Shown piece by piece: positions 6,295 through 28,589 of a DNA stretch of 49,268 nt (the first letter of the stretch is position 1; each line of letters opens with the position of its first letter). Below the pieces are notes generated by a model. The model was given only the letters and a program-made list of their open reading frames with translations. It searched no databases and was not told the DNA's origin. The translations under genes were made by a program, and so were the position numbers. The DNA is from Candidatus Krumholzibacteriota bacterium (lineage in GTDB: Bacteria > Krumholzibacteriota > Krumholzibacteriia > LZORAL124-64-63). The DNA is taken from contig JAJRZA010000031.1 of the NCBI GenBank assembly GCA_024275485.1, positions 1-49,268 on the forward strand, in the 5' to 3' direction.

Positions 6295-9200
6295 CTACTT
6301 CATCAGCAACATCTTACCCACCATACTCTTGCCACCGCTTGTCAGGCGATAGAAGTAGGCACCACTGGCAACGGAACGACCGTGGTCGTCGCGTCCCATC
6401 CAGTTCACCTGATGGTGACCGGCTTCCATGGTCTCGCTGACCAGGGTGCGCACCCGCACGCCACGCACATCGTAGACGGCCAGCTCAACGCTCTGTGCCT
6501 CGGGCACCGAGAACCTGATGACGGTCATGGGGTTGAACGGGTTGGGGTAGTTGCCGTCAAGTGCCAGGACCCTGGGCAATCCGGCATCATCAACCGGAGA
6601 CAGGGACGACAGCTCATAAGTCAGGATCAGGCACCAGCTGTTGACATGGCCGAAATCGAAAGGACCAACATCCGTAACGTGCAGGACCCAGTCACCCTGA
6701 ATATCCTCACCCAACAAAACATCAAGACTTTCGAAGGGGGTGAAATCCGAAGGATAGAAGCCCACCAGATCATCATTGCTGCTGCCCTGGTTGCTGTGCA
6801 AACGCACCGTGGTGCCGGCGGGACTGATCAGTTCGATGATCATGTCACCGATGTAGGTGTGAGTGATGTCCACATAAACACTGATGGCACTGAGCGTGCT
6901 AACAGCATCAACGGCAATGGTACAATAGACTCCACCATCGGGATCGTTGTCGGGAATATCCACATTCGCATCATCGCAGAAGGAATTGGTGACGATGGGA
7001 TTTAGGATAAAGTTCTGCTCAACCGTCTGACCCTCATCCAGTGCCACATCGGCAACACCGGTGCTGAAACCGTAGCGTTCAGCCGTCAGGTGGTAGTTGC
7101 CCTGGTACAGTCCTTCGAAAGCATAGCTTCCGTCTGGTCCGGTGACCAGAACCTGGTTGCCGGGAGTCAGGGTCAGGGTCACGCCGCTGTTGTCGCCGCC
7201 GGGGCACTGCACCTGGCCAACAATGGCCGAGCTGCCGATCTCCGATGTCGTCAGGTAAGTCACGGCATTCTGCAACAGGTTGGCACGTTCGCTCACACCC
7301 AGGGAACTGTAATTGAAGGTAAAGAAGACAATCTGACCACCCTGAGGCGCGGGGTTGGGGTCAAAACAAACAACGCTGCCGGTGGTGGGGGAACCGGACC
7401 AGCTGCCAGGCCATTGTGCATCGGCTGCGGGATCCACACTGTCACTGTCGCCATATCCACTGTAGGACAAGGAAATGGGACCGACGATGATATTGGGCCA
7501 GCTCATGATGTAGTGATCGGGATCATGGACCGTCAGGTTGCCCACACTGTCAGAACCCCAATCCAGAATATGCAGCACATTGGCGCAGAAGGCGGCGTCG
7601 CTTTGGTGGTTATAGGCCACCTCCCCGCCTTCGATCAGGAGCTTGCCGCCGTCGGCCACGAAGGTGGTCATGTCCGCCCTCAAAGCCGTTGACAGGTCCA
7701 GGGTTTTGGCCCCGGCGGAAACCAAAACCATGTCGTAGGTAATCCAGTCGGCGTAATCGTAGCCTGGGCTGTTGACCATCACCGCGGCATAACCCATGGC
7801 GATCAGATCAGCCAGAATATCAGCGGCTGCGCGAGGAGCAGGCGCAGTGTATCCAGGAGCCAGAACGATACCGTTCTTACCCAGTTTGGGACCCACGCTC
7901 ACCATTTCTTCCCGGGTGGAAGCATCGTTGACCACCAGGATGCTGCCGTTGGTGGCTTCCAGCTGGAAGTCCTTGGTGATGCTCGGGGCGTTGATGCCCA
8001 CGGTCACCGTCTGGGGAATAAAATGGTAGGCCGAAACAACGACATCGTAGTCGAAGTAGGTCAGGGACGAAGTGGTGAACAGACCAGCCTCATCTGTGAT
8101 TGTGCTGGCCATCAGGGTACCGTTGTCACTGCGATAAACCTTGATGCTCGCGCCGTCGATGGCCGAGCCGTCCTGCATGGCCGTCACGGTACCGGTCAAC
8201 ACCCCGGACGGGGCCTGGGTCATGACAAGGCCATGATCGTTGGCACCGAACATCAGGAAATAGGTTTCCATGTGATTGAGGTAACCGAATTTGCTGGCGT
8301 ACAGGTCGTAGTTGCCAACGGGTAGTTCTTCAGGAGCAGCGAACGCGCCGGAAGCGTCGGTCACCAGGTCGAACAGGGGCAGGCCGCCGGGGTCGTCACC
8401 TTCGTTGAAACCGTAGACACGCACATCGGGAATGGGCGCGCCACCATTGTCGGCATCGGTCACCACACCAGCGAGGGTACCGAAAGCGGTCACGACTTCA
8501 ATATCGGCCGTAAAAACATTGTGGCCGGGTTTCAGCAGGGCGGCAACCACGGTGCCGGTGCTGGTCGGAGTAACATTCTGGACAACGGAATATCCGGAAC
8601 CGATGGCGTGGAGATCCAGGCCCGCACCGGTCAGCTGCAATTCAAAATCGGCAACATCGCTGGTGGCTGTCACTACACCCTCAATGTGGGGAGTCAAGGT
8701 ACCGGTCATACCGATGCTTGCCACTTCAGCAATCACCGCGGCATTGGTCAGATCAACCGCGCCGGTGACGGGCAGATCGTTGTTGAACATGTCGTAACCC
8801 GCGCCGTCTTCGACGCCGCGCACGTTCAGGATTTCACCAAATTCGGGCGTCACGCTGAACACGGCCACGCCGTCGTCGCCAGTCACTGCTTCCAACCCAG
8901 TCACACCATATCCATTGATGGTGATGGTGACATTGCCGACAGCCTTGGCCGCTGGTGGATCCATCAGGGTCACGGTGACCTCGGTGGTCACCCCCACCGC
9001 AATGCTGGCAGGCTGGATATCCACAATCACGGGCACCACAGCCTGCAGGAAGATAACCTGGGTCAACAGGTTGTAACCGGTCACGGTCATGGTCACTTCA
9101 CCGGCCACCACCACGGGATTATCCAGCTGGACATCCACATGACCGGCGGCATCGGTGATACCAACACCGTGCAGTTGACCGTTGCTGTAGAGGGCAACCT

Positions 9201-10992
9201 TGGCTCCGGCAACGCCGGTATCCACCGGGAAGACCGGGGACCCAAGGGCCAGAACGTCGGAGTGGGACATGACCGGAGCAACCGGCGTATCGGTGCGGAT
9301 CATCAGTGAGCAATCACCAAATATATTGTACTGCTCAACCAGCTGGCTGTTGCCGGGGTACTCGTCCATGACCCGCATAATGCCGTGATAATAGAGTGAA
9401 CCGATGACGTTGGCCTGGTCGGCCACCATCAGGTCCACAGCCTCGGCCTGCATCACGCAGGGAGGAACCCAGGGCGTGCTTGTGGAAGCGCTGTACATGG
9501 CAACGGCACCGTCGGGCTGGGTCGGATCACCGGCACGCATCCAGGCTTCGGCAAAACACTCGGTCATGGAGAAGTCGCCGTTTGAGCAGCTCACATCCAG
9601 AATCCAGGGGTTCTTGTAGCCATTGCTCAGGGCATGAACATTGGAAATATTAAAATAGGGGTTGCTCCATGAAGTACCGGAGCCGTGGCCGATGTAGTTG
9701 ACCAGACTGACGCCATCGTTCACTGCAGCGGTGACATGGGCTGTCGTGCCGCTAGGTTGATAGATTTGATAAACTTCGGTAAAGGTGTACCCCATCATGT
9801 CATCACGCAGCCAATCGGCGCGGGTGTAATCTGGAGGAGAACCTTCATTCGAAGCCAGACCGGCACCCTTGTGGTACCAGTCCCCCGCGGCATCGGGATT
9901 GCGTTCGTAACGGATGAACTTGTTGATCTGGGTTTCGATATCGGCCGGATTGGAGCCGGAGATACGCGAAACAAACAGGTCGGGATAAAGGTCGTTGCCT
10001 TCCTGGTTCGCATAACGTGTATCATCATCAGCACCTTCGAAGGTGCCGGAGTAGCAGGGCACCTGGGCCTGGTCGCCAACAAGAATGACGTAGGTCAAAC
10101 CGGCAGGCTCGGCATAGCGGGAGTCGATGGCAGCCTGAATGCCGGCAGTGGTTCCGCCCACGCTGCCGGTAGAAATGAGTTCAACATCCAGACCGGTGGA
10201 GCGCTTCCATTCCAGGAAGGGCTGGATGGTGCCCATGAATGCGTCGTTGCAGACGACCAGCATGCGACCGTCCACGGAAACCATGTTGTATTTGGAGGCA
10301 GAATCGTAGTTGTCGAAGCCAAGACGATAGAGGTTGGCGAACTGGGTATCAATTCCGTCCTGCATGCGGCCCTGCTTGACGTTGATGCCACCGGTGCCGG
10401 TGGTTTCCACTTCCAGGGTCATGCTCTCCAGGGCCAGCAGTTGGCCACTGTCCGCATCCCAGCGCACGGCGTTGATGCGCAGGCTGACACCACGGTAATC
10501 GCGCATGATGAAGGGGTCGGCCAAGGTGGCTTCACCGGCGGGGAAAATCCCACCTGAGCTATAAACCGCACCGAAGGTGTAGGGCACTGTGGATGGATCT
10601 ACTGTCCGCAGGAGGTTGCCCTTGGAAGGCGGAGCGGAGTTGGTGGAGACTTCACGCCAGGTGCTCCTGGTCACTCGCACCACCGGTGTTCCGGCGTCGG
10701 GTATGATCAGGCTGCTGGTGATGAAAGGCAGTTCGGGTTGACCCTGCTTTATGGTGAACCAATGACCGGGAATGCGCACCCGAGTATAATCGGTGCCTCC
10801 AATGACCACTGTTTCGGTATCCACCCCACTGATGGTGATATCCAACCGGGTAAGATTATCAGCTTCCTGGCTGACCTGAACCACGGGCCGGGCGACATCC
10901 TGACCATCAAAACTTACCCATTCAGCTTGGGCAAAGGAGCTGAATCCCATAAAAAGGGCCAGCATCAGCACTGAAAACAACCTCTTGCTCAT
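6295..10992 (-). CDS. Secreted C25 (gingipain-family) cysteine protease with CarbRegD, P-domain and T9SS sorting domain
   Basis: 1565 residues. The start is the second of two adjacent ATGs (10992), with GGAGG at 10999-11003. A signal peptide (residues 1-23, AQA|EW) leads into a propeptide-like region to about 230. The caspase-like C25 domain (235-570) has catalytic His436 in YIGHG and Cys469 in LDVSCSNG. Then follow an Ig-like region (580-830), two carboxypeptidase-regulatory-like repeats (about 838-1012), and an alpha/beta domain resembling a non-catalytic class I amidotransferase fold (1017-1250). Next come a third CarbRegD (1255-1330) and a proprotein-convertase P-domain (1335-1460). The FlgD-like C-terminal domain (1478-1565) has NYPNPFNPMTVIRF and ends GKMLLMK. 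Gingipain-type enzymes cleave after Arg or Lys; the specificity here cannot be read. The C-terminal domain predicts export through T9SS. It is a tandem paralog of the gene at 11321 and has its own promoter and terminator. Confidence 0.93.
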   Translation of the reverse strand: MSKRLFSVLMLALFMGFSSFAQAEWVSFDGQDVARPVVQVSQEADNLTRLDITISGVDTETVVIGGTDYTRVRIPGHWFTIKQGQPELPFITSSLIIPDAGTPVVRVTRSTWREVSTNSAPPSKGNLLRTVDPSTVPYTFGAVYSSGGIFPAGEATLADPFIMRDYRGVSLRINAVRWDADSGQLLALESMTLEVETTGTGGINVKQGRMQDGIDTQFANLYRLGFDNYDSASKYNMVSVDGRMLVVCNDAFMGTIQPFLEWKRSTGLDVELISTGSVGGTTAGIQAAIDSRYAEPAGLTYVILVGDQAQVPCYSGTFEGADDDTRYANQEGNDLYPDLFVSRISGSNPADIETQINKFIRYERNPDAAGDWYHKGAGLASNEGSPPDYTRADWLRDDMMGYTFTEVYQIYQPSGTTAHVTAAVNDGVSLVNYIGHGSGTSWSNPYFNISNVHALSNGYKNPWILDVSCSNGDFSMTECFAEAWMRAGDPTQPDGAVAMYSASTSTPWVPPCVMQAEAVDLMVADQANVIGSLYYHGIMRVMDEYPGNSQLVEQYNIFGDCSLMIRTDTPVAPVMSHSDVLALGSPVFPVDTGVAGAKVALYSNGQLHGVGITDAAGHVDVQLDNPVVVAGEVTMTVTGYNLLTQVIFLQAVVPVIVDIQPASIAVGVTTEVTVTLMDPPAAKAVGNVTITINGYGVTGLEAVTGDDGVAVFSVTPEFGEILNVRGVEDGAGYDMFNNDLPVTGAVDLTNAAVIAEVASIGMTGTLTPHIEGVVTATSDVADFELQLTGAGLDLHAIGSGYSVVQNVTPTSTGTVVAALLKPGHNVFTADIEVVTAFGTLAGVVTDADNGGAPIPDVRVYGFNEGDDPGGLPLFDLVTDASGAFAAPEELPVGNYDLYASKFGYLNHMETYFLMFGANDHGLVMTQAPSGVLTGTVTAMQDGSAIDGASIKVYRSDNGTLMASTITDEAGLFTTSSLTYFDYDVVVSAYHFIPQTVTVGINAPSITKDFQLEATNGSILVVNDASTREEMVSVGPKLGKNGIVLAPGYTAPAPRAAADILADLIAMGYAAVMVNSPGYDYADWITYDMVLVSAGAKTLDLSTALRADMTTFVADGGKLLIEGGEVAYNHQSDAAFCANVLHILDWGSDSVGNLTVHDPDHYIMSWPNIIVGPISLSYSGYGDSDSVDPAADAQWPGSWSGSPTTGSVVCFDPNPAPQGGQIVFFTFNYSSLGVSERANLLQNAVTYLTTSEIGSSAIVGQVQCPGGDNSGVTLTLTPGNQVLVTGPDGSYAFEGLYQGNYHLTAERYGFSTGVADVALDEGQTVEQNFILNPIVTNSFCDDANVDIPDNDPDGGVYCTIAVDAVSTLSAISVYVDITHTYIGDMIIELISPAGTTVRLHSNQGSSNDDLVGFYPSDFTPFESLDVLLGEDIQGDWVLHVTDVGPFDFGHVNSWCLILTYELSSLSPVDDAGLPRVLALDGNYPNPFNPMTVIRFSVPEAQSVELAVYDVRGVRVRTLVSETMEAGHHQVNWMGRDDHGRSVASGAYFYRLTSGGKSMVGKMLLMK

Positions 10993-11070
10993 CATAATCC
11001 TCCAGAACTGCTTGGTTTTTGCGTCTCTTGGAAAATAAAAGTCCAACGCATCTATATATGAGAAGGGGTA

Positions 11071-11099
11071 ATTGTAGCATTTTTGCCCTTGGAGAGCAA
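11071..11099 (-). promoter_or_regulatory. Promoter of the first C25 protease gene
   Basis: Read on the minus strand: TTGCTC (11094-11099), a 17-base spacer, TACAAT (11071-11076). The -10 context CAAAAATGCTACAATTAC matches the one in front of the paralog (CAAAAATGTTAAAATTAC) at 16 of 18 bases, although the flanking leaders differ. Confidence 0.6.
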
Positions 11100-11255
11100 T
11101 CAACACGGATTTTTCCTCATTTTGACGGCCAATTTATTTTTTGTGGGTCCCCTTGCGTAATGTATGTTCTTTCATATAAAGAAAGTGCCAAAAACAACTT
11201 ACCAACACCTGAGAACAAAACGCATTATCATTTTCAAAAACAAATATTCAACAAA

Positions 11256-11286
11256 GGAGGGTGGCCTCCTGAAAGACCACCCTTCC
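11256..11286 (-). terminator. Terminator-like hairpin after the second C25 protease gene
   Basis: GGGTGG (11259-11264) pairs with CCACCC (11277-11282), extended by GGA/TCC with a bulge. On the minus strand it is followed only by TTTGTTG, so the U-tract is weak. It matches the stronger hairpin at 16282-16313 in sequence and position. Confidence 0.6.
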
Positions 11287-11324
11287 GAAAAAGCTCACGA
11301 AATCGTTATCTTTATTGATTTTAC
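11275..11324 (-). repeat. 3' module, copy 1 (shared with 16304-16350)
   Basis: From 11275 the plus strand reads GACCACCCTTCCGAAAAAG, identical for 19 bases to the copy at 16304. Similarity continues (TCAC..AATCGTTA, then GATTTTACT) into the stop codon of the neighbouring gene. The module forms the 3' untranslated end and one arm of the terminator. Confidence 0.75.
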
Positions 11325-14300
11325 TTGATTAAAATCATTTTTCCCACAAGATTCTGCCCCTCACTGGTGAGACGATAAAAGTAGGTGCCACTGGAAACTA
11401 ATCGCCCAAGATCGTCACGACCTGTCCAGGTCACTTCGTGATGCCCAGCTTCCATCACACCACTGACCAGGGTGCGCACTCGGACACCCCGCACATCATA
11501 GACAACAAGCTCGGAATTGCGGGCCTGAGGAATTGAAAACCTAATAACCGTCAGGGGGTTGAATGGATTCGGATAGTTTCCGTCCAGGGACAAAATCCGT
11601 GGCAAGTCGTCCTCTGCCACCGGCGAAGGAATAGCTTCGGCATAACTCAGCACCAGGCACCAACTGTTGACATGGCCCCAATCCTGAGGGCCCACATCCA
11701 TCACATGCAACAGCCAGTCACCCTGAATGGACTCACCCAAAAAGGTACTCAGGTCTTCTTGGGGAGTAATATCCGCGGGGTACCAACCAACCAAACCATG
11801 CTCCCCACCCGTCTGGTTCTGATGCAGACGAACAATGGTGCCGGAAGGGCTGATCAGGTCGATCACCATGTCCGAAACCGCAGTGTGGTTGATGTCCACA
11901 AAAACACCCAGGTCACTGACGGTGCTGGGCTCATCAATGGTGAGGGAAAAATACACACCTTCGGGGTCGTTGTCGGGAATATCCATATCAGGCGCACTGC
12001 AGAATGTATTGGTCACGATGGGGACCAGATACAAATTCTGGGTCACCAATTCCCCTTCGGTCAAAACCACATCCACCACGCTACTGCTGAAGCCCGGTTT
12101 GGTAGCAGTTACCTGGTATGATCCTTCAACCATGCCCCAAAAAGTGAAGTTGCCATCCGGCCCGGTCTGGAAAGTGGTATTGCCTGGAGTCAGAGTCAGC
12201 GTCACATCACTGTCATCGGTTGCCTCGTGCACCCGCACCCGGCCCGCCAGGGTGGCAGTTCCCAATTCCTGGAGCGACAAATAAGCCACTGCGTTTTGCA
12301 AAATTTCAATTCGGCCTACGGCATCAAGGGCACTGTAATTGAATGTAAAGTATACGATTTGACCTCCCTCCGGAGCTGGGTTAGGATCGTAACAGATAAT
12401 GCTTGCCCTTGTAGGAGCAGTGGACCAACTGGCTGGCCAAGCAGCATCGCCAGTAGGAATCAACACGTCTGAATCGCCAAAACCGGTATAAGAAAAAATT
12501 ACAGGCCCGACGATGGTGTTGGGTACACTCATCACCGCATGGTAGGGATCATTCACAATCAGGTTGCTGACGAAGTCGGCCCTCCAATACAGCAAATGCA
12601 ACACCTTGGTGCTGAATTCCAAGTCGTTTCGATTGTTGTAACCAACTTCACCCCCCTCAACAAACAGTTTACCATCGGCGGCGACGAAACTGAGCATATC
12701 ATTCTTCAGGGTTGTGGGAAAATTGTTGGTATTTCCTCCGGCCGAAACCAGAACCAGGTCATAGCTGAACCAATCGTCATAATTGTAGCTGTCGCTGGTG
12801 ACCAGATCGATCGTATAATTGAGGGTCGCCAAATCCGTTACCAGATCCGAGGCGGAACGATTCTCGGGGGCATCGTAACCTTTGGCCAGGACAACCCCGT
12901 CCTTGCCGAGTTTGGCGCTGTGCTGTCCCGACTTGCCACCCGATGAGCTATGATCAACAACCAGGATTTTTCCAATGGTGGGAACCATTTGAAAGTCCTG
13001 AACCGTGCTGGGCAAGGCAAAAGTAATATTGTGCGATTGCACTTCGAACAGATAGGAGCTCACAATCACCCGATAATCATAATATGGAAGAGCCGGGCTG
13101 GTGTAACCACCGGCAATATCGGTATTGATCAGGGCCATCTGGTCGTTGTTGTCGAGACGGAAAATCTGGATGATGGCATTGACGGGAGAGTCGCCAGCCA
13201 GCTCCGAGACCCTGCCGGTGAGAACGCCCAAGGGAGCAAGATCCATGGCGATGACGTGGTTGTTGACCCCGTGCATCAGGGAAAAAGTTTCAAAATAATC
13301 CGAATAGCCAAATTTGACCGCATACAGATCATAATTCCCCACAGGCATCTGGGTCGTCACCACGTAGGCTCCGGACGCATCGGTCACCAGATCAAACAAG
13401 GGGACACCATTGGGATCGTCCCCCTCATTGAAGCCATAAACATGCACCCCGGTCAGGCCAAGGCCGTCACCGTCGCCGTTGAGAATAACGGTGCCGGCCA
13501 AAGTTCCATTGGCGGGTATCACATCGATTTCAACTTCAAAAATATTGTGCCCGGACTTAAGCAAGGTGGCAAAAACGGTTCCGGTGCTGCTAGGAAAAAC
13601 ATTTTGGGCAACGGTGGTGCCTGACCCGACCACAAGCAGATCAAGGCCCGATCCGGTCAGCAGGAGGTCAAAATCCACCACATCGCTGGTTCCGGTCACC
13701 GTACCCTCCAGGTTGGGTGCCAGAGTGCCGCTCATGCCGATGCTGGGCACTGCGGCCAACACCTGGGCATTGGTGAGATCCGCTGCGCCCGTCACTGCCA
13801 GGCCACGTTTGAAAAGGTCGTAGTCGGCGCCAAATTCAACGCCACTAACCAGCAGGGTTTCCCCAAATTCGGGCGTGATGCTGAACACGGCCACTCCTTG
13901 GGCATCGGTCACCGCTTCCAGTCCGGAAACACCAAGACCTTCGATTGTCACCGTTACATTGGTCACGGTTTTTGCTGCCGGTGGATCACCCAGGGTGATG
14001 GTGATTTCCGAGGTCATGCCCACGGGAATGGTAGGCTGCTGGATGTCCACCAGAATAGGAATTTCGCCCTGCAGGGGAATGATCTGGGTCAAAAGATTGT
14101 AACCGGTCACGGTCATGGTCACTTCACCGGGAACCGTGACGGGATTTTCAAGGGCCACATCCACATGGCCGCTGGCATCAGTGACTCCAACACCGTGCAA
14201 CTGACCATTGCTGTAAATAGCCACCCGCAAATTTTCCAGACCAGTGTCCACGGGAAAGACGGTGGCACCGAGGGCAATCACATCGTCATGGTACATATTC

Positions 14301-16030
14301 GGCACAATGGGAGCATCGGTGCGAATCATCAGGGAACAATCCCCAAAAATATTGTATTGCTCCACCAACTGAACATTTCCCGGATACTCATCCATCACCT
14401 TCATGATGCCGTGATAATAAAGTGAGCCGAGCACGTTGGCCTGATCGGCCACCATAAGGTCCACTGCTTCGGCCACCATAATACAGGGTGGCACCCAAGG
14501 TGTGGTCGACGAAGCGCTGTAGATAGCCAGTGCACCATGAGGTTGCTCCGGGCTGCCGGCGCGCATCCAGGATTCTGCAAAACATTCGTCCTCTGAAAAA
14601 TCACCGTTGGAGCAACTGATATCCAGAATCCAGGGGTTCTTCCAGCCATTGGTCAGGGCCTGAATGGCCGGAACATTAAAATAGGGATTTGTCCAGGAGG
14701 AGCCCGTCCCGTGCCCTATGTAATTGATCAAGCTGACCCCCGCATTCACGGCGGTGGTAATATCGCTGGTGGTGCCTTCGGGCTGATAGATCTCGTGCAC
14801 CTGGGAAAAGGAGTAGTTCAACATGTCATCACGAAGCCAACCAGCGCGTTCCAAATCCGAAGGTTCGCCCTGGTTCGACGCCAGACCGGCCCCGATATGA
14901 TACCAGTCGGCGCCGGGATCGGGATCCCGTTCGTAGCGGATGAACTTGTTGATCTGGGTTTGAATATCAGCGGGGTTGGATCCTGAAATGCGAGAGACGA
15001 ACAGGTCGGGATAATAATCATCGCCTTCCTGATTGCCGTAGCGAGTGTCGTCATCGGCCCCTTCGTAGGTGCCGGAGTAGCTGGGGACCTGAGCCTGATC
15101 GCCCACCAGGATGACATAGGTCAAACCTTCAGGCTCGGCATAAAGGGCGTCTATGGCCCCTTGAATGCCGGCGGTGGTCCCCCCCACACTGCCGGTGGAG
15201 ATGAGTTCCACTTTCAATCCCATGGAGCGCTTCCACTCCACAAAAGGTTGAATGGGGCCCATAAAGGAGTCATGGCTGACAACCAACAGGCGCCCACCCA
15301 CGGCCACCATATTGTACTTGTCGGAAGTTTGGTAGTTGTCAAAGCCAAGGCGATAAAGGTTGGCAAACTGCGGGTCGATGCGGACCGGCTGGTCGCCCTT
15401 GGCCGGGCGCTGCTTGATATTGATGCCACCGGCGCCGCTGGTTTCAACTTCCAGGGTCATGCTCTCAAGAGCCAGCAATTGCCCACTGCCCGCATCCCAG
15501 CGCACGGCGTTGATGCGCAAGCTCACCCCACGGAAATCACGCATGATAAACGGCCTGGCCAAGCTGGCTTCCTCGGCGGGAAAAATTCCATCGGAGGTGT
15601 AGACTGCACCAAAAGAATAGGGCACGGTGGAGGGGTCCACGGTGCGGGGAATATTTCCCTTGGAAGGCACCACCGGGTTGGTGCCGATAGCGCGCCAGGT
15701 GCTTTTGGTAACCCTCACCACAGGGGTACCGGCATCGGGAATAATCAGGCTGCTGGTGATAAATGGCAGTTCTGGCTGACCCTGATCCAGGGTGAACCAA
15801 TGTCCGGGGATGCGCACTTGGGTGTAATCGGCGCCATCTATGGCCACGTTCTCAATTTCCACACCACTGAGAGTAATATTCAACTGAAGACGATGATCAG
15901 CCTGTTGATCGATCCGGATTTCAGGGCGCGCCACCCCTTGGCCGGCAAAACTCACCCATTCAGCTTGAGCCATCCAGCAGTATCCTGTGGTCAGGACGAA
16001 AACCAACACTGAAAATAGCCTCTTGATCAT
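11321..16030 (-). CDS. Secreted C25 (gingipain-family) cysteine protease, tandem paralog
   Basis: 1569 residues. The start ATG 16030 is chosen because GGAGG (16037-16041) lies six bases upstream; a nearer ATG in the same frame sits directly on the ribosome site. The domain order is the same as in the neighbour at 6295: signal peptide (1-23, AQA|EW), propeptide, C25 domain with His440 (INYIGHG) and Cys473 (LDISCSNG), Ig-like region, two CarbRegD repeats, amidotransferase-like domain, third CarbRegD, P-domain, and a FlgD-like T9SS domain (NYPNPFNPLTVIRF ... GKMILIK). The propeptide and catalytic part look about 70-75% identical to the paralog by eye, while the middle domains diverge more. Conservation of both catalytic residues suggests both copies are active. 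It should act at the cell surface or outside the cell. It likely arose by local duplication, as the -10 region is also conserved. Confidence 0.93.
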   Translation of the reverse strand: MIKRLFSVLVFVLTTGYCWMAQAEWVSFAGQGVARPEIRIDQQADHRLQLNITLSGVEIENVAIDGADYTQVRIPGHWFTLDQGQPELPFITSSLIIPDAGTPVVRVTKSTWRAIGTNPVVPSKGNIPRTVDPSTVPYSFGAVYTSDGIFPAEEASLARPFIMRDFRGVSLRINAVRWDAGSGQLLALESMTLEVETSGAGGINIKQRPAKGDQPVRIDPQFANLYRLGFDNYQTSDKYNMVAVGGRLLVVSHDSFMGPIQPFVEWKRSMGLKVELISTGSVGGTTAGIQGAIDALYAEPEGLTYVILVGDQAQVPSYSGTYEGADDDTRYGNQEGDDYYPDLFVSRISGSNPADIQTQINKFIRYERDPDPGADWYHIGAGLASNQGEPSDLERAGWLRDDMLNYSFSQVHEIYQPEGTTSDITTAVNAGVSLINYIGHGTGSSWTNPYFNVPAIQALTNGWKNPWILDISCSNGDFSEDECFAESWMRAGSPEQPHGALAIYSASSTTPWVPPCIMVAEAVDLMVADQANVLGSLYYHGIMKVMDEYPGNVQLVEQYNIFGDCSLMIRTDAPIVPNMYHDDVIALGATVFPVDTGLENLRVAIYSNGQLHGVGVTDASGHVDVALENPVTVPGEVTMTVTGYNLLTQIIPLQGEIPILVDIQQPTIPVGMTSEITITLGDPPAAKTVTNVTVTIEGLGVSGLEAVTDAQGVAVFSITPEFGETLLVSGVEFGADYDLFKRGLAVTGAADLTNAQVLAAVPSIGMSGTLAPNLEGTVTGTSDVVDFDLLLTGSGLDLLVVGSGTTVAQNVFPSSTGTVFATLLKSGHNIFEVEIDVIPANGTLAGTVILNGDGDGLGLTGVHVYGFNEGDDPNGVPLFDLVTDASGAYVVTTQMPVGNYDLYAVKFGYSDYFETFSLMHGVNNHVIAMDLAPLGVLTGRVSELAGDSPVNAIIQIFRLDNNDQMALINTDIAGGYTSPALPYYDYRVIVSSYLFEVQSHNITFALPSTVQDFQMVPTIGKILVVDHSSSGGKSGQHSAKLGKDGVVLAKGYDAPENRSASDLVTDLATLNYTIDLVTSDSYNYDDWFSYDLVLVSAGGNTNNFPTTLKNDMLSFVAADGKLFVEGGEVGYNNRNDLEFSTKVLHLLYWRADFVSNLIVNDPYHAVMSVPNTIVGPVIFSYTGFGDSDVLIPTGDAAWPASWSTAPTRASIICYDPNPAPEGGQIVYFTFNYSALDAVGRIEILQNAVAYLSLQELGTATLAGRVRVHEATDDSDVTLTLTPGNTTFQTGPDGNFTFWGMVEGSYQVTATKPGFSSSVVDVVLTEGELVTQNLYLVPIVTNTFCSAPDMDIPDNDPEGVYFSLTIDEPSTVSDLGVFVDINHTAVSDMVIDLISPSGTIVRLHQNQTGGEHGLVGWYPADITPQEDLSTFLGESIQGDWLLHVMDVGPQDWGHVNSWCLVLSYAEAIPSPVAEDDLPRILSLDGNYPNPFNPLTVIRFSIPQARNSELVVYDVRGVRVRTLVSGVMEAGHHEVTWTGRDDLGRLVSSGTYFYRLTSEGQNLVGKMILIK

Positions 16031-16098
16031 CCTCATCCTCCGGAACATTTGGCCTGAACATAATCTGGTCGATGCGCATATTGATAAAATCATAAGTA

Positions 16099-16104
16099 AT
16101 TTTA
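16099..16104 (-). promoter_or_regulatory. -10 element of the second C25 protease gene
   Basis: TAAAAT on the minus strand inside CAAAAATGTTAAAATTAC, conserved with the paralog's promoter. No good -35 hexamer is present at 17 bases (TACTTG), so an activator or a different sigma factor may be involved. Confidence 0.45.
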
Positions 16105-16281
16105 ACATTTTTGGGACCTTGCAAGTACCTTCTGGTGAAATTTACTGAGTATCAATTGTGGGCTTCATTTTCAATTCCACAGGAAGCCTCCGGCAATTCC
16201 GGATTAACTATCTGAAAACAAATAGGTTTCTCAGTTTTTGATATTATATTTTTATTTTCATGTAAAAGCTATCAAAACAAC

Positions 16282-23498: not shown

Positions 23499-24383
23499 TC
23501 AGTCTTCGGGAATTTCCCGCCCCGGACGGTACCGCTGACTGTCCAGGCGGAAGGAGATGGTGAAGTACCAGACAGCCGGGCGGTCGAGACTGCCCTGCAA
23601 TTCCCTCGATACCTTCAACCCAACCGAACCATCATCAGTCCAGGGAGCCCAGACCTGCATACCCAACAGCTGGGAAATCCGCCCCTGTCGGTGGTTGAAA
23701 TCATAGGCAAGAGCCAGACGGGAGTTTCTTCCCCGGTACCAATTCAAGACACCCCCGAGGTGAAAACCGCTGGGAAAGGCTTCATCCCCCTCAAGATAAT
23801 CCTTGGCCGAAGCCATGTTGGCCAAATATCCCAGGGTCAATCCTAACTGCTTGTCGGCACCCCAGGGATAAATTTTTCGCAGGTCCAAACGCAGTGGCAT
23901 ACCAATGGAACCGAAGGGATACAAACGGTCGGTACCCGCTGGCAGCCCCAGGGCAACTGCATAGTGCCAGTTGGGTAGAAATGGCAGGCCGGTGGGACCG
24001 GTGGCCCCGATTTCGGGTTGGCTCAGACTTGTTATCCGGCGGGAATGGGGCCACCCATCGCCGCCACCGATTCCTTCAATCCAGGGCCAGCGTGAAAAAA
24101 TCGGAATCTTGCCGGTGTCGAATGAGGTGAAAGGCATTCGTAAAAAAAACGCCGCCTCCTGACCGGCGGGCAGCATGATTGTCACCAGCAAACGATTGAC
24201 GGACCAACCAAACTTGGCATCTTCAAATCGGTTGAAGTCGGCGACAAGCGCCAGTCGGGAGGTTGAGTCGGCGGGAGCAAAAAAAGGCATGTCATCCAGA
24301 TAAAGCATCTGGGCGTGCAGCGGCGCTACACTGAAGATCAACAGGGGCAAGGCGGTACCAAGAATGATGATTCCGAGCCGCAT
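23499..24383 (-). CDS. Exported barrel-like (outer-membrane porin-type) protein
   Basis: 294 residues. The start ATG 24383 lies eight bases after the stop of the zinc-finger gene; a longer frame would overlap that gene. A signal peptide (residues 1-24, ending APLHA|QM) is followed by alternating amphipathic strands rich in aromatic residues (RLALVADFNRFED, NWHYAVALGLPAG, RLALAYDFNHRQG). It ends in a terminal strand ending in Phe-x-Phe (WYFTISFRLDSQRY). This is the look of an outer-membrane beta barrel. I do not recognise a family. A second reading is a lipid- or metabolite-binding barrel, as in OMPP1/MetA-pathway-like proteins. It is the last gene of the operon starting at the promoter 25408-25436. 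The 299 bases downstream (23200-23498) show no gene or clear terminator. Confidence 0.7.
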   Translation of the reverse strand: MRLGIIILGTALPLLIFSVAPLHAQMLYLDDMPFFAPADSTSRLALVADFNRFEDAKFGWSVNRLLVTIMLPAGQEAAFFLRMPFTSFDTGKIPIFSRWPWIEGIGGGDGWPHSRRITSLSQPEIGATGPTGLPFLPNWHYAVALGLPAGTDRLYPFGSIGMPLRLDLRKIYPWGADKQLGLTLGYLANMASAKDYLEGDEAFPSGFHLGGVLNWYRGRNSRLALAYDFNHRQGRISQLLGMQVWAPWTDDGSVGLKVSRELQGSLDRPAVWYFTISFRLDSQRYRPGREIPED

Positions 24384-24391
24384 CACCAATT

Positions 24392-25099
24392 TCAACGGTG
24401 ATCCTGTTCGATGAGCCGAACCACCCCTGCTTCTTCGAAATAGCATTTGATGATATAGCGACCACCGGGAATAACTTCCTTGGACACAACCACGCCACAG
24501 TCGTTCCAGGCCAAATGATTGATGCATTGCCCCACCTCGTAAGTCTCCCAGGGTCGATAGGGTGCCGCTTCGGCAACATCCGTCTCCGCCAGCATGGCGG
24601 CATATTCCAGAATTGGCTCGATATCCTCTTTGGGTTTGGTGTGCGAATCCGTTTCGGAGCCAAATGGTTTCGGTTCGCTTGCCCCTTCAACCACCTCAGC
24701 GGCCCCTGGTTCCACCACAGGATCAAACGCCACCCCAACCAGGACATCGTCATCGAATTCCGGAGGATCGGCAGGGTCCACATCCTGTTTTGGGGATGAA
24801 CCCTTGGCCACGTCTTTCAGTTCCTTCATCATGGCCGCAGGACTGTCCCAGGGCAGATTGTCGTTCTGCCCGGGGCCGGATGCGGTGGTGTCGAGATTAT
24901 TGGAGGTTGTTGCCGTACTGGTTGTGGGAGTATCCTCCGTTGCCGAATCGTCAAGGGCTTCTTTCAGTTTGGGAAGAAACCCCTGGCACAGCGGGCACCG
25001 GTACCAAACAACGCCATCATCGTCATCCCCGTCGTTGGTGGGGACGACTTCCATATCCAGCCAATCCTTGCAGACTGAACAAAATTGTCTGGATTTCAC
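24392..25099 (-). CDS. Zinc-ribbon protein with acidic linker and a conserved C-terminal domain
   Basis: 235 residues from GTG 25099, which has CGGAG upstream; frames opening further left overlap the 59-residue gene. The N-terminus has two CxxC knuckles (CSVC and CPLC, about 28 residues apart), a probable zinc ribbon. A long low-complexity Asp/Ser/Thr/Pro linker covers about 45-180. The last 50 residues are ordered: YEVGQCINHLAWNDCGVVVS, then EVIPGGRYIIKCYFEE and VVRLIEQ. They resemble small SH3-like or CarD-like modules that begin 'VGxxIxHxxxGxGVV'. It is possibly a nucleic-acid- or RNA-polymerase-associated protein. Function unknown; the domain reading is mine from pattern only. Confidence 0.7.
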   Translation of the reverse strand: MKSRQFCSVCKDWLDMEVVPTNDGDDDDGVVWYRCPLCQGFLPKLKEALDDSATEDTPTTSTATTSNNLDTTASGPGQNDNLPWDSPAAMMKELKDVAKGSSPKQDVDPADPPEFDDDVLVGVAFDPVVEPGAAEVVEGASEPKPFGSETDSHTKPKEDIEPILEYAAMLAETDVAEAAPYRPWETYEVGQCINHLAWNDCGVVVSKEVIPGGRYIIKCYFEEAGVVRLIEQDHR

Positions 25100-25139
25100 G
25101 GTAACTCCGAGCGGCGAATCAACGCTTTTGGTGTGTAAA

Positions 25140-25319
25140 TCAGGGAGCGATATTGCAACAGGCCTCGGCCTCGTCCTTTGACAAATAGCGCATGCCGCAA
25201 ACCAGACATTTGTTGGGGCCATCAATGCGACCCTCATTTTCGGCACGGCGCAAAAGCCGACGATACTTTACAAAACTCTCATCTCGAACCAACAAACCAT
25301 CTTCTTTGACGCTGATCAT
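25140..25319 (-). CDS. Small Cys-containing protein (59 aa)
   Basis: The start ATG 25319 has a perfect AAGGAGG five bases upstream. The sequence begins MISVKEDGLLVRDES, has a basic helix (YRRLLRRAENEGRIDG), and ends in CLVC...ACC (Cys at about 44, 47, 54, 55), which could hold one zinc or an iron-sulfur cluster. It is the first gene behind a good promoter (25408-25436) and is followed 40 bases later by another CxxC protein, so the two may function together. I do not recognise a family. Confidence 0.75.
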   Translation of the reverse strand: MISVKEDGLLVRDESFVKYRRLLRRAENEGRIDGPNKCLVCGMRYLSKDEAEACCNIAP

Positions 25320-26343: not shown

Positions 26344-26373
26344 AGTATACCACGGAACACCCCGGAGGGTCAA
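26344..26373 (-). promoter_or_regulatory. Promoter of the DnaQ-like gene (leaderless)
   Basis: Minus strand: TTGACC (26368-26373), an 18-base spacer, TATACT (26344-26349), then six bases to the ATG at 26337. The -35 overlaps the TGA stop (26370-26372) of the preceding gene. Confidence 0.7.
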
Positions 26374-27209
26374 TGGGCACCTGTCAAATGTGGCCTGGCA
26401 TCATGGCCAAAATCCACCAATTCCATGACCTCTACCCGTATTCGGGCAGGCGGGACTGGAATTTTTTTGTTGGGAGGATCAAGTGTCGACTCGGCCCGAA
26501 CCCTCTCCGATGCATATGCCAAACCCAAAAAAGGAATGTCCTGATGGACTGCGGCTGCAATTTCCCGGGAAGAAATCTGCTTCATTTCCCCAGCCGGCAT
26601 TCTCACGGTCTGAGTATCATTGCTGGCAAGAATCCACTGACGGCAGGTGAACTGACGGCCGGCGACCACCCGTGTTGTGGATTGCTGGTTGCTCACTTCG
26701 TCAGGCGTGAAGTCCGATTGGAAGGAGGTTGAAATAAGCGGATCATCGCGCAGTTCCTCGGGAGTGATATCCCTGGCACGGCCATCCTGCCATTGCCGTA
26801 CCGAAACTACCGAGGCCAGCAACGGTCCTTGCCGCAGCAAAATATCCCGGGAAAGCCGAACTTGAGCCCCCAACCCGGGAACGGGCAGCAGGGTACCGTC
26901 GGATTGCTCCTCAAGAGGCAACAACTCAAGAAGGAATGAACTGTCATCCGAACCATCGGCCCTGCTGAGACAGGCAACCCGGGTAATTCCGATTTCCCGA
27001 CGTCCACCGGCCATCACCTGGGTACGGTAATCAACCCAATCGCCTTCGGATATTTGCAAGGGGATTTCCGGTTGCCGCCAAAGGGTGAACAAATCCAGAG
27101 CTTCAACCGGGGCTGCGGCCACCAACATAGCAGCCAAGGCCAGAATACGAACGGCCGACACTGTTGGTCGGCCGTTCAAATCATGATACAAGCTCTTCAA
27201 AACCGGCAC
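26370..27209 (-). CDS. Exported protein of unknown function
   Basis: 279 residues from GTG 27209, six bases after the stop of the metallophosphatase-cytochrome gene. An AAGGAG lies only two bases ahead of this GTG, so a TTG three codons later is possible. A signal peptide or anchor (about 21-37, ILALAAMLVAAAPVEA) precedes a beta-rich region starting QISEGDWVDYRTQVMAGG. The pattern 'GDWVxYR...G..Rxxxxx...V' recurs in periplasmic proteins from related bacteria, but I cannot name the family. There is one Cys pair (about 80 and 185) and no heme motif. Close spacing suggests the same operon and perhaps a shared envelope role. Confidence 0.7.
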   Translation of the reverse strand: MPVLKSLYHDLNGRPTVSAVRILALAAMLVAAAPVEALDLFTLWRQPEIPLQISEGDWVDYRTQVMAGGRREIGITRVACLSRADGSDDSSFLLELLPLEEQSDGTLLPVPGLGAQVRLSRDILLRQGPLLASVVSVRQWQDGRARDITPEELRDDPLISTSFQSDFTPDEVSNQQSTTRVVAGRQFTCRQWILASNDTQTVRMPAGEMKQISSREIAAAVHQDIPFLGLAYASERVRAESTLDPPNKKIPVPPARIRVEVMELVDFGHDARPHLTGAH

Positions 27210-27215
27210 CGCTCC

Positions 27216-28589
27216 TTAATGTTTGATCTTTTCCCAGTAGGTTGCGAAGTCGAACTCGGGACTGTTGTCCTTGTCATGACAAGTCACACAGGAATCCTGG
27301 GCCTGGGCCAGCCACTTGCCGTCCCGGGCATGCTCGGATCCATAACCATGGCAAGCCTCACACTGCACGTTCACCAACTGGTTAAAGGGACGTTCGTCCG
27401 CATAACCATTGATGTAACGATAGCCTGTGGTGTGACAGAGGATGCATTCAGGTTCATCGCTCTGGCCTTTGGCCCGAATGCTGGTGAATGACTTGCTGTG
27501 GGAGGACTCGGTGTAAGCAGTCCAGGAATCCTCATGACAGCCCTTGCAGGAACGACTGCCCAGAAAAGTCTCCTTTTCCGAGCCCAGATCCCGGGGGAAA
27601 TCCGCCCGTTTGGCCAGTTGGAACGCCTCAAAACTGGCTTTGTAGTCTGCCACCCGAATGGCCATTTCCGGTTCATCTTCAACGGATTGATCCAGGCTGG
27701 TCAATTCAACATCAACCGCCATGACCTTGCCGTTGACATCATCGACGAAGATATCCGCCCGACCTGCATAGCGTCCCTCGTGGGGAGCCGCCAGAACAAT
27801 GGTATCTTCAACAATGCGTTCGGATTTCAACAGCCTATGGGTATGGCCCATAACGGCAATGTCGATGCCCTTGACCTCGCGGATCACCGTATCGGTGTCG
27901 CCTTCGCCAAGGTGCCCCAGCAGAACCACGGTATCGACTTCCTTGCGCATGCGCGGCAATACATCACGAAGGACGGCAACTGGATCTTTGATTTCAAGGC
28001 CGCTGTCGGTAGCAGTCATGGTGATGATCTTGTGATTTGCCCCCAGGACACTGACCAGACCAAATTTGATGCCGTTCTTTTCCACTACCAGGTACTCGGG
28101 TAGGATCAGTTCACCCGTCTCCCGGTTCACCACGTTGGCACTGGTGAAGGGAATATCATATTTCTTGATCATATCCTTCAGGAAATCCAGGCCATAGTTC
28201 AGGTCCGCTTCACCCAGGCCAATGCCGTCATAACCGAAATCGCCCGTCACTTCACACAAAAACCGGGATTGATGCTGGTCATTCTTGTTGCGACGGCCCA
28301 TGAGGTCACCGCCGTCAATCATTAGAACAGGCACGTCTTCATTCCAAACAGAGTCAAAGTAGGTCGCCCTCCGGGCAACCCCGCCACGCTGCTTGGATTT
28401 TCAGCCACAGGGATCGATTTTACCCTTCACATCGTTGAGATACAAAACCGTGACGTTTTTCCAGGTCCCCTTGTCGGCAGCATAGGCGGAGCCGGTGGAA
28501 GCACCCCCTGGTCCGGCCACCGAGGCGGCCAAAAGTAGAAGAACTGTTGCCAGGCCCAGCAAGCCTGACCATCCCATTAGCTTGGTCAT
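27216..28589 (-). CDS. Candidate selenoprotein: metallophosphatase (5'-nucleotidase-like) domain fused to tetraheme cytochrome c
   Basis: 457 codons if TGA 28401-28403 is read as selenocysteine (residue 63); otherwise two pieces, 28401-28589 and 27216-28334, in one frame with 22 open codons between. The start ATG 28589 has AAAGGG six bases upstream. A signal peptide ends near AYA|ADK (37). The phosphatase-like part begins VTVLYLNDVKGKIDPCG-U-KSKQRGGVARRATY. Metal-site motifs are partly lost (NDVK for NDxH at 52-55, GEAD for GNHE at 126-129), while LGHLG (His226) and GHTH (248-251) remain. The C-terminal part has four CxxCH heme sites (348, 382, 410, 434), cytochrome c554-like. As I recall, relatives carry Cys in a PCGC motif at the TGA position. 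It should be an exported redox protein. Read-through versus pseudogene versus sequencing error is not settled; an intact 395-codon remainder argues against decay. Confidence 0.8.
28362..28380 (-). promoter_or_regulatory. SECIS-like hairpin downstream of in-frame TGA
   Basis: Minus strand: GGTTGCCC (28380-28373), loop GGA (28372-28370), GGGCGACC (28369-28362), an 8-bp stem with one G-U pair. The loop lies 29-31 bases after the TGA and starts with G. This fits the bacterial SECIS rule as I recall it (apical loop 3-14 bases, 16-37 bases from UGA, G in its first two positions). Confidence 0.6.

Follow-up and report, generated by a model that had tools for sequence, protein, structure and literature searches.

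The window analysed here, the whole stretch of 49,268 nucleotides, carries on its minus strand a gene that very probably encodes a selenoprotein of the known UshA-like PCGU family, i.e. an exported tetraheme protein in which SelB would insert selenocysteine at codon 63 as part of a Cys-Gly-Sec redox centre. Selenocysteine insertion at this codon is strongly supported by sequence comparison, while export and heme binding are predicted from motifs. Taken by itself, the redox part is likely, and here we infer the chemistry and the electron route. The gene, its elements and the gene downstream of it are located as follows:

27216..28589, minus strand: gene for a UshA-like PCGU selenoprotein of 457 residues, ending in TAA and with a single in-frame TGA
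28482..28589, minus strand: putative N-terminal signal peptide (approximate), a hydrophobic stretch to about AYA, read from the translation
28401..28403, minus strand: TGA predicted to be read as selenocysteine 63, motif Pro60-Cys61-Gly62-Sec63
28362..28380, minus strand: SECIS-type hairpin with a stem of 8 bp and the loop GGA, 20 nt 3' of the TGA
27738..28481, minus strand: UshA/5'-nucleotidase-fold domain with eroded metal site
27276..27548, minus strand: tetraheme cytochrome c554-like domain, CXXCH motifs starting at 27548, 27446, 27362 and 27290
26370..27209, minus strand: conserved downstream gene without Pfam match, with a homolog next to the selenoprotein gene in 9 of the 13 flanks examined

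Family membership

The gene is a well-supported further member of a known family and not a new discovery. The full-length protein, with Cys written for Sec, scores 275.7 bits against NCBIfam NF041198 ('UshA-like (seleno)protein', UshA_like_PCGU), above the cut-off of 275, and an N-terminally trimmed version falls just below it with 274.6 bits. The earlier note had proposed a candidate new selenoprotein, of a family that it did not recall from lists of bacterial selenoproteins. Both statements have to be withdrawn, since the family behind NF041198 was already on record in 2008 or earlier. It was listed in the GOS selenoproteome of that year as COG0737 UshA-like, with a CxU motif and 76 sequences, as one of the previously characterized families (PMC2398784), it is included in a selenoproteome table of 2022 (PMC9312934), and a table of 2026 gives it with the NF041198 accession (PMC13188914). 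With the family present in all three publications, it cannot count as new.

The protein resembles NF041198 in the PCGU motif, in domain order (profile positions 15-269 and 349-518 are matched), in a score above the cut-off and in the alternation of Cys and Sec. It differs in a score that barely clears the cut-off and in its host lineage, which the three papers do not treat for this family. A related UshA-like N-terminal stretch is also found in NCBIfam NF049981 (UshA-like (seleno)protein family 2). However, the match of 38.6 bits is far below the cut-off of 140, the Sec motif of that family is CxxU, and the model is shorter (262 positions). One paper was found that names both Krumholzibacteri- and selenoproteins, each a single time, so this lineage is little covered.

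Reading frame and codon 63

The frame starts with ATG at 28589 and ends with TAA at 27218-27216, and its sole internal stop is the TGA at 28401-28403, codon 63; all coordinates given in the earlier note are correct. The translation up to the TGA reads MTKLMGW...AYAADKGTWKNVTVLYLNDVKGKIDPCG, and around codon 63 the residues are ...LYLNDVKGKIDPCG-TGA-KSKQRGGVARRATY..., with Pro-Cys-Gly-TGA at residues 60-63. In the 72 nt upstream of the TGA, 417 of 737 differences among nine relatives fall on third codon positions. Elsewhere in the window TGA works as a normal stop, as had been suggested for dnaE, accD and alr: it ends these three and five more genes (eight checked). A scan of the window with Rfam at gathering thresholds gave no match.

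Among the phylum relatives with the motif, the column of codon 63 holds TGA in 51 genes and TGC or TGT in 13, or 14 Cys genes when L082 is counted, which is cut by a contig end and reads GCG-N-H-D-Y-GG with the same five residues ahead of GG. Zero genes of the phylum set have another codon here. The earlier expectation of a Cys position, to be checked by aligning homologs from several genomes, is thus borne out by Cys or TGA throughout. The 50 other phylum genes that share the TGA come almost all from separate assemblies, and this recurrence rules out a sequencing error. Cys61, Gly62 and Sec63 are invariant in the Sec-form phylum relatives (51/51). A contig search with an alignment as query brought up relatives where a single sequence had matched nothing. 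A wider alignment of 54 proteins, with record titles naming Krumholzibacteriia, Eisenbacteria, Deltaproteobacteria, Rokuibacteriota, Latescibacterota, Acidobacteria, Blastocatellia, Planctomycetota, Nitrospinota, Nitrospirae and others, has TGA in 34 and Cys (TGC/TGT) in 20, so that Sec or Cys occupies position 63 in 54/54; C61 is present in 52/54.

Some related genes deviate from this pattern. L092 (G016), L135 and L160 keep the TGA and have lost the partner Cys, with PAGU and AFGU replacing PCGU. A TAG inside L044 and L053 turned out to be the ordinary stop of a short heme-less Cys form, which the match had overrun. The paralogs L087, L088 and L091 have about 300 residues, a hydrophobic N-terminus, no hemes, and the motif REPCSU or REPCGU followed by SGMARW; they are possibly related to UshA-like family 2.

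SECIS-type hairpin and selenocysteine machinery

Downstream of the TGA, the hairpin with a G-starting loop that had been noticed at 28362-28380 is present and of the bacterial SECIS type. It has the sequence GGTTGCCC-GGA-GGGCGACC, with eight pairs including one wobble; the loop variants in the family are GGA and GGC. The loop starts 28 nt past the TGA, a spacing within the range of bacterial SECIS elements. Folding of the 60 nt that begin at the TGA gives -27.7 kcal/mol, compared to -17.84 +/- 3.07 for shuffled sequences (z -3.2). Across the 51 TGA genes the distance between the TGA and the GG residues is constant, and the loop begins with G in 51/51. The stem, formed by columns 24-31 with 35-42, has standard pairs in 89% of cells versus 79% in shuffles and a covariation score of 0.333 versus 0.162 +/- 0.014, slid controls being lower in every case; 40 stem cells are altered on both sides versus 15.6 in shuffles. 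RNAalifold unaided recovers the inner six pairs. Pair 27-39 is seen as GC, CG, GU, UG, UA and AU, and pair 30-36 as CG and UA. As these two pairs link synonymous third codon positions, the protein sequence cannot account for the covariation. A covarying hairpin with a loop-initial G, as expected of a bacterial selenoprotein gene, is thus found downstream of the UGA.

In the Cys genes (n=13) the same columns form no stem, and pair 29-37 is G-G in 10 of the 13, whereas it is C-G in every Sec gene. The best hairpin in the wider set has on average 7.5 pairs in TGA genes versus 4.2 in Cys genes. The only Sec-form gene with the conserved hairpin broken is L070 (G040), at 1225-1284 (CCCGACGCGC), where another hairpin may serve. 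Residue 72 (28374-28376) is Ala in 50/51 Sec forms (GLARR) and Gly in 14/14 Cys forms of the phylum (GLGRR). Its codon belongs to the hairpin and hence the RNA may constrain the protein here; shared ancestry could also explain the split.

The earlier note would have given up selenocysteine if the genome had no sel genes. This objection is answered, since the source genome (3.98 Mb, 96% complete) contains SelA (449.5 bits), SelB (330.6 bits, cut-off 242), SelD (366.5 bits) and a tRNA-Sec (69.5 bits) with anticodon UCA according to ARAGORN. The SelD gene (L100, G000:C1:20138-21055) has one in-frame TGA itself, and judged from this frame SelD is probably a selenoprotein, too. Within the phylum, SelB was found in 73 of 78 genomes. 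At E <= 1e-60 it had no match in G036 and G068, two genomes that have the TGA form, probably owing to assembly gaps.

Domain architecture

The C-terminal part matches Pfam Cytochrome_C554 (PF13435) with 47.5 bits (cut-off 20.8) and contains four CXXCH heme motifs at residues 348, 382, 410 and 434. It shares the tetraheme arrangement with the cytochrome c554 family but is fused here to a UshA-like domain. For this N-terminal domain, an AlphaFold2 model of the protein (mean pLDDT 91.2, pTM 0.83) was compared by Foldseek, and the best PDB matches were 5'-nucleotidases (3ivd, 2z1a, CD73), with SoxB also found. The Pfam scan of the protein gave no 5_nucleotid_C; the tetraheme domain stands in place of the C-terminal nucleotide-binding domain.

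The two-metal ligands and the catalytic His-Asp of UshA/5'-nucleotidase enzymes are incomplete. Aligned to the Thermus 5'-nucleotidase, ND-x-H has become NDVK, i.e. a metal-ligand His is replaced by Lys, and the catalytic NHEFD has become EADLN. In relatives the His of ND-x-H is variable, and His is not among the commonest residues in the catalytic-His column. Other metal-ligand residues are still frequent in the 51 Sec-form relatives (D53 in 43, D95 in 40, H226 in 43 and H249 in 38), and some kind of metal site is therefore possible. Compared with E. coli UshA and the Thermus enzyme (1ush, 2z1a), the protein shares the N-terminal domain fold and some metal-ligand positions, but the catalytic His, one metal His and the C-terminal nucleotide domain are lost, and the tetraheme domain and Cys-Gly-Sec are added. 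Of the earlier label metallophosphatase-tetraheme cytochrome, the UshA fold and the tetraheme part hold, whereas a metallophosphatase beyond the fold does not, the metal and catalytic residues being partly lost.

Alternative explanations

If the TGA were a genuine stop or came from a sequencing error, the locus would be a pseudogene or consist of two ORFs with a new start past the TGA. Translation with table 11 does stop at the TGA, and a downstream ORF of 372 amino acids opens at GTG 28334. However, this ORF would carry the four heme motifs and no signal peptide, codons upstream of the TGA are conserved, and both the occurrence of the TGA in 51 genes with Cys as sole alternative and the covariation of the hairpin count against such a reading, which we regard as highly improbable. 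Read-through with Trp, Cys or by a suppressor would be compatible with the open frame by itself. Against it stand the eight window genes that end in TGA, the full set of SelA, SelB, SelD and tRNA-Sec UCA, the SelB-type hairpin that is absent from Cys genes, and Cys as only alternate at the column, so that we give this explanation hardly any credence.

The protein could also be a selenoprotein and still a hydrolase, either a 5'-nucleotidase or a SoxB-like thiosulfohydrolase, with hydrolysis tuned or regulated by a Sec close to the metal site. The fold speaks for this, as do the retention of D53, D95, H226 and H249 in most relatives and matches to the SoxB model TIGR04486 (72.7 bits) and the UshA model (53.7 bits). 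These scores are, however, far below the respective cut-offs of 550 and 600, the changes in ND-x-H and NHEFD affect ligand and catalytic residues, and 5_nucleotid_C is missing; a hydrolase seems unlikely to us. SoxB (2wdc) is not known to have Cys-Gly-Sec or fused hemes.

Proposed function

We favour as best reading a periplasmic selenothiol oxidoreductase built on a nucleotidase fold. In this mechanism, SelB would recognise the hairpin starting 20 nt after the UGA and direct selenocysteine to codon 63, and the protein would be exported to the periplasm with four c-type hemes. The N-terminal domain would keep the 5'-nucleotidase fold with its two-metal hydrolytic centre mostly lost. As this centre is largely lost and the C-terminal domain of UshA is absent, the protein is presumably not a nucleotidase. 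We infer from the alignments that the hydrolase centre has been abandoned or modified and that the catalytic work falls to Cys-Gly-Sec. Cys61-Gly62-Sec63 would act as a two-electron selenolate/thiol centre on a periplasmic substrate and exchange electrons with the protein's own tetraheme domain, the hemes being the electron route. The exported redox role near four hemes that had been suggested before is likely. With a probability somewhat short of even, the family may represent an unrecognised class of periplasmic selenoenzymes, in which a nucleotidase scaffold has lost its hydrolytic metal centre and uses Cys-Gly-Sec connected to the four hemes. Its substrate, to be reduced or oxidised, would perhaps be a disulfide or a compound of sulfur or selenium.

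The UshA-like PCGU family has been catalogued for nearly two decades without an assigned function in PMC2398784, PMC9312934 and PMC13188914. The comparison presented here shows a hydrolase site that decays while the Cys-Gly-Sec centre stays, and a SECIS hairpin that is tied to Sec forms rather than Cys forms. Together, this yields a concrete and testable redox hypothesis. It also adds a lineage dominated by the Sec form, and it is relevant for annotation, where standard gene calling shortens such genes.

Genomic neighbourhood

In 13 flanks of Sec-form genes from the phylum, a homolog of LptD was found in 13/13, an HU-type gene in 12/13 and a DnaQ-like exonuclease in 10/13; L114, a SelB region of another genome, was left out of this set. 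The genes at 23499-25246 and 26370-27209 have no Pfam match and keep their position beside the selenoprotein gene in relatives. This constant genomic place speaks for vertical inheritance. Elsewhere in the window, at 6295-16108, there are two tandem genes of about 1600 amino acids each with weak PorU-type sortase matches and a C-terminal T9SS type A sorting domain (TIGR04183).
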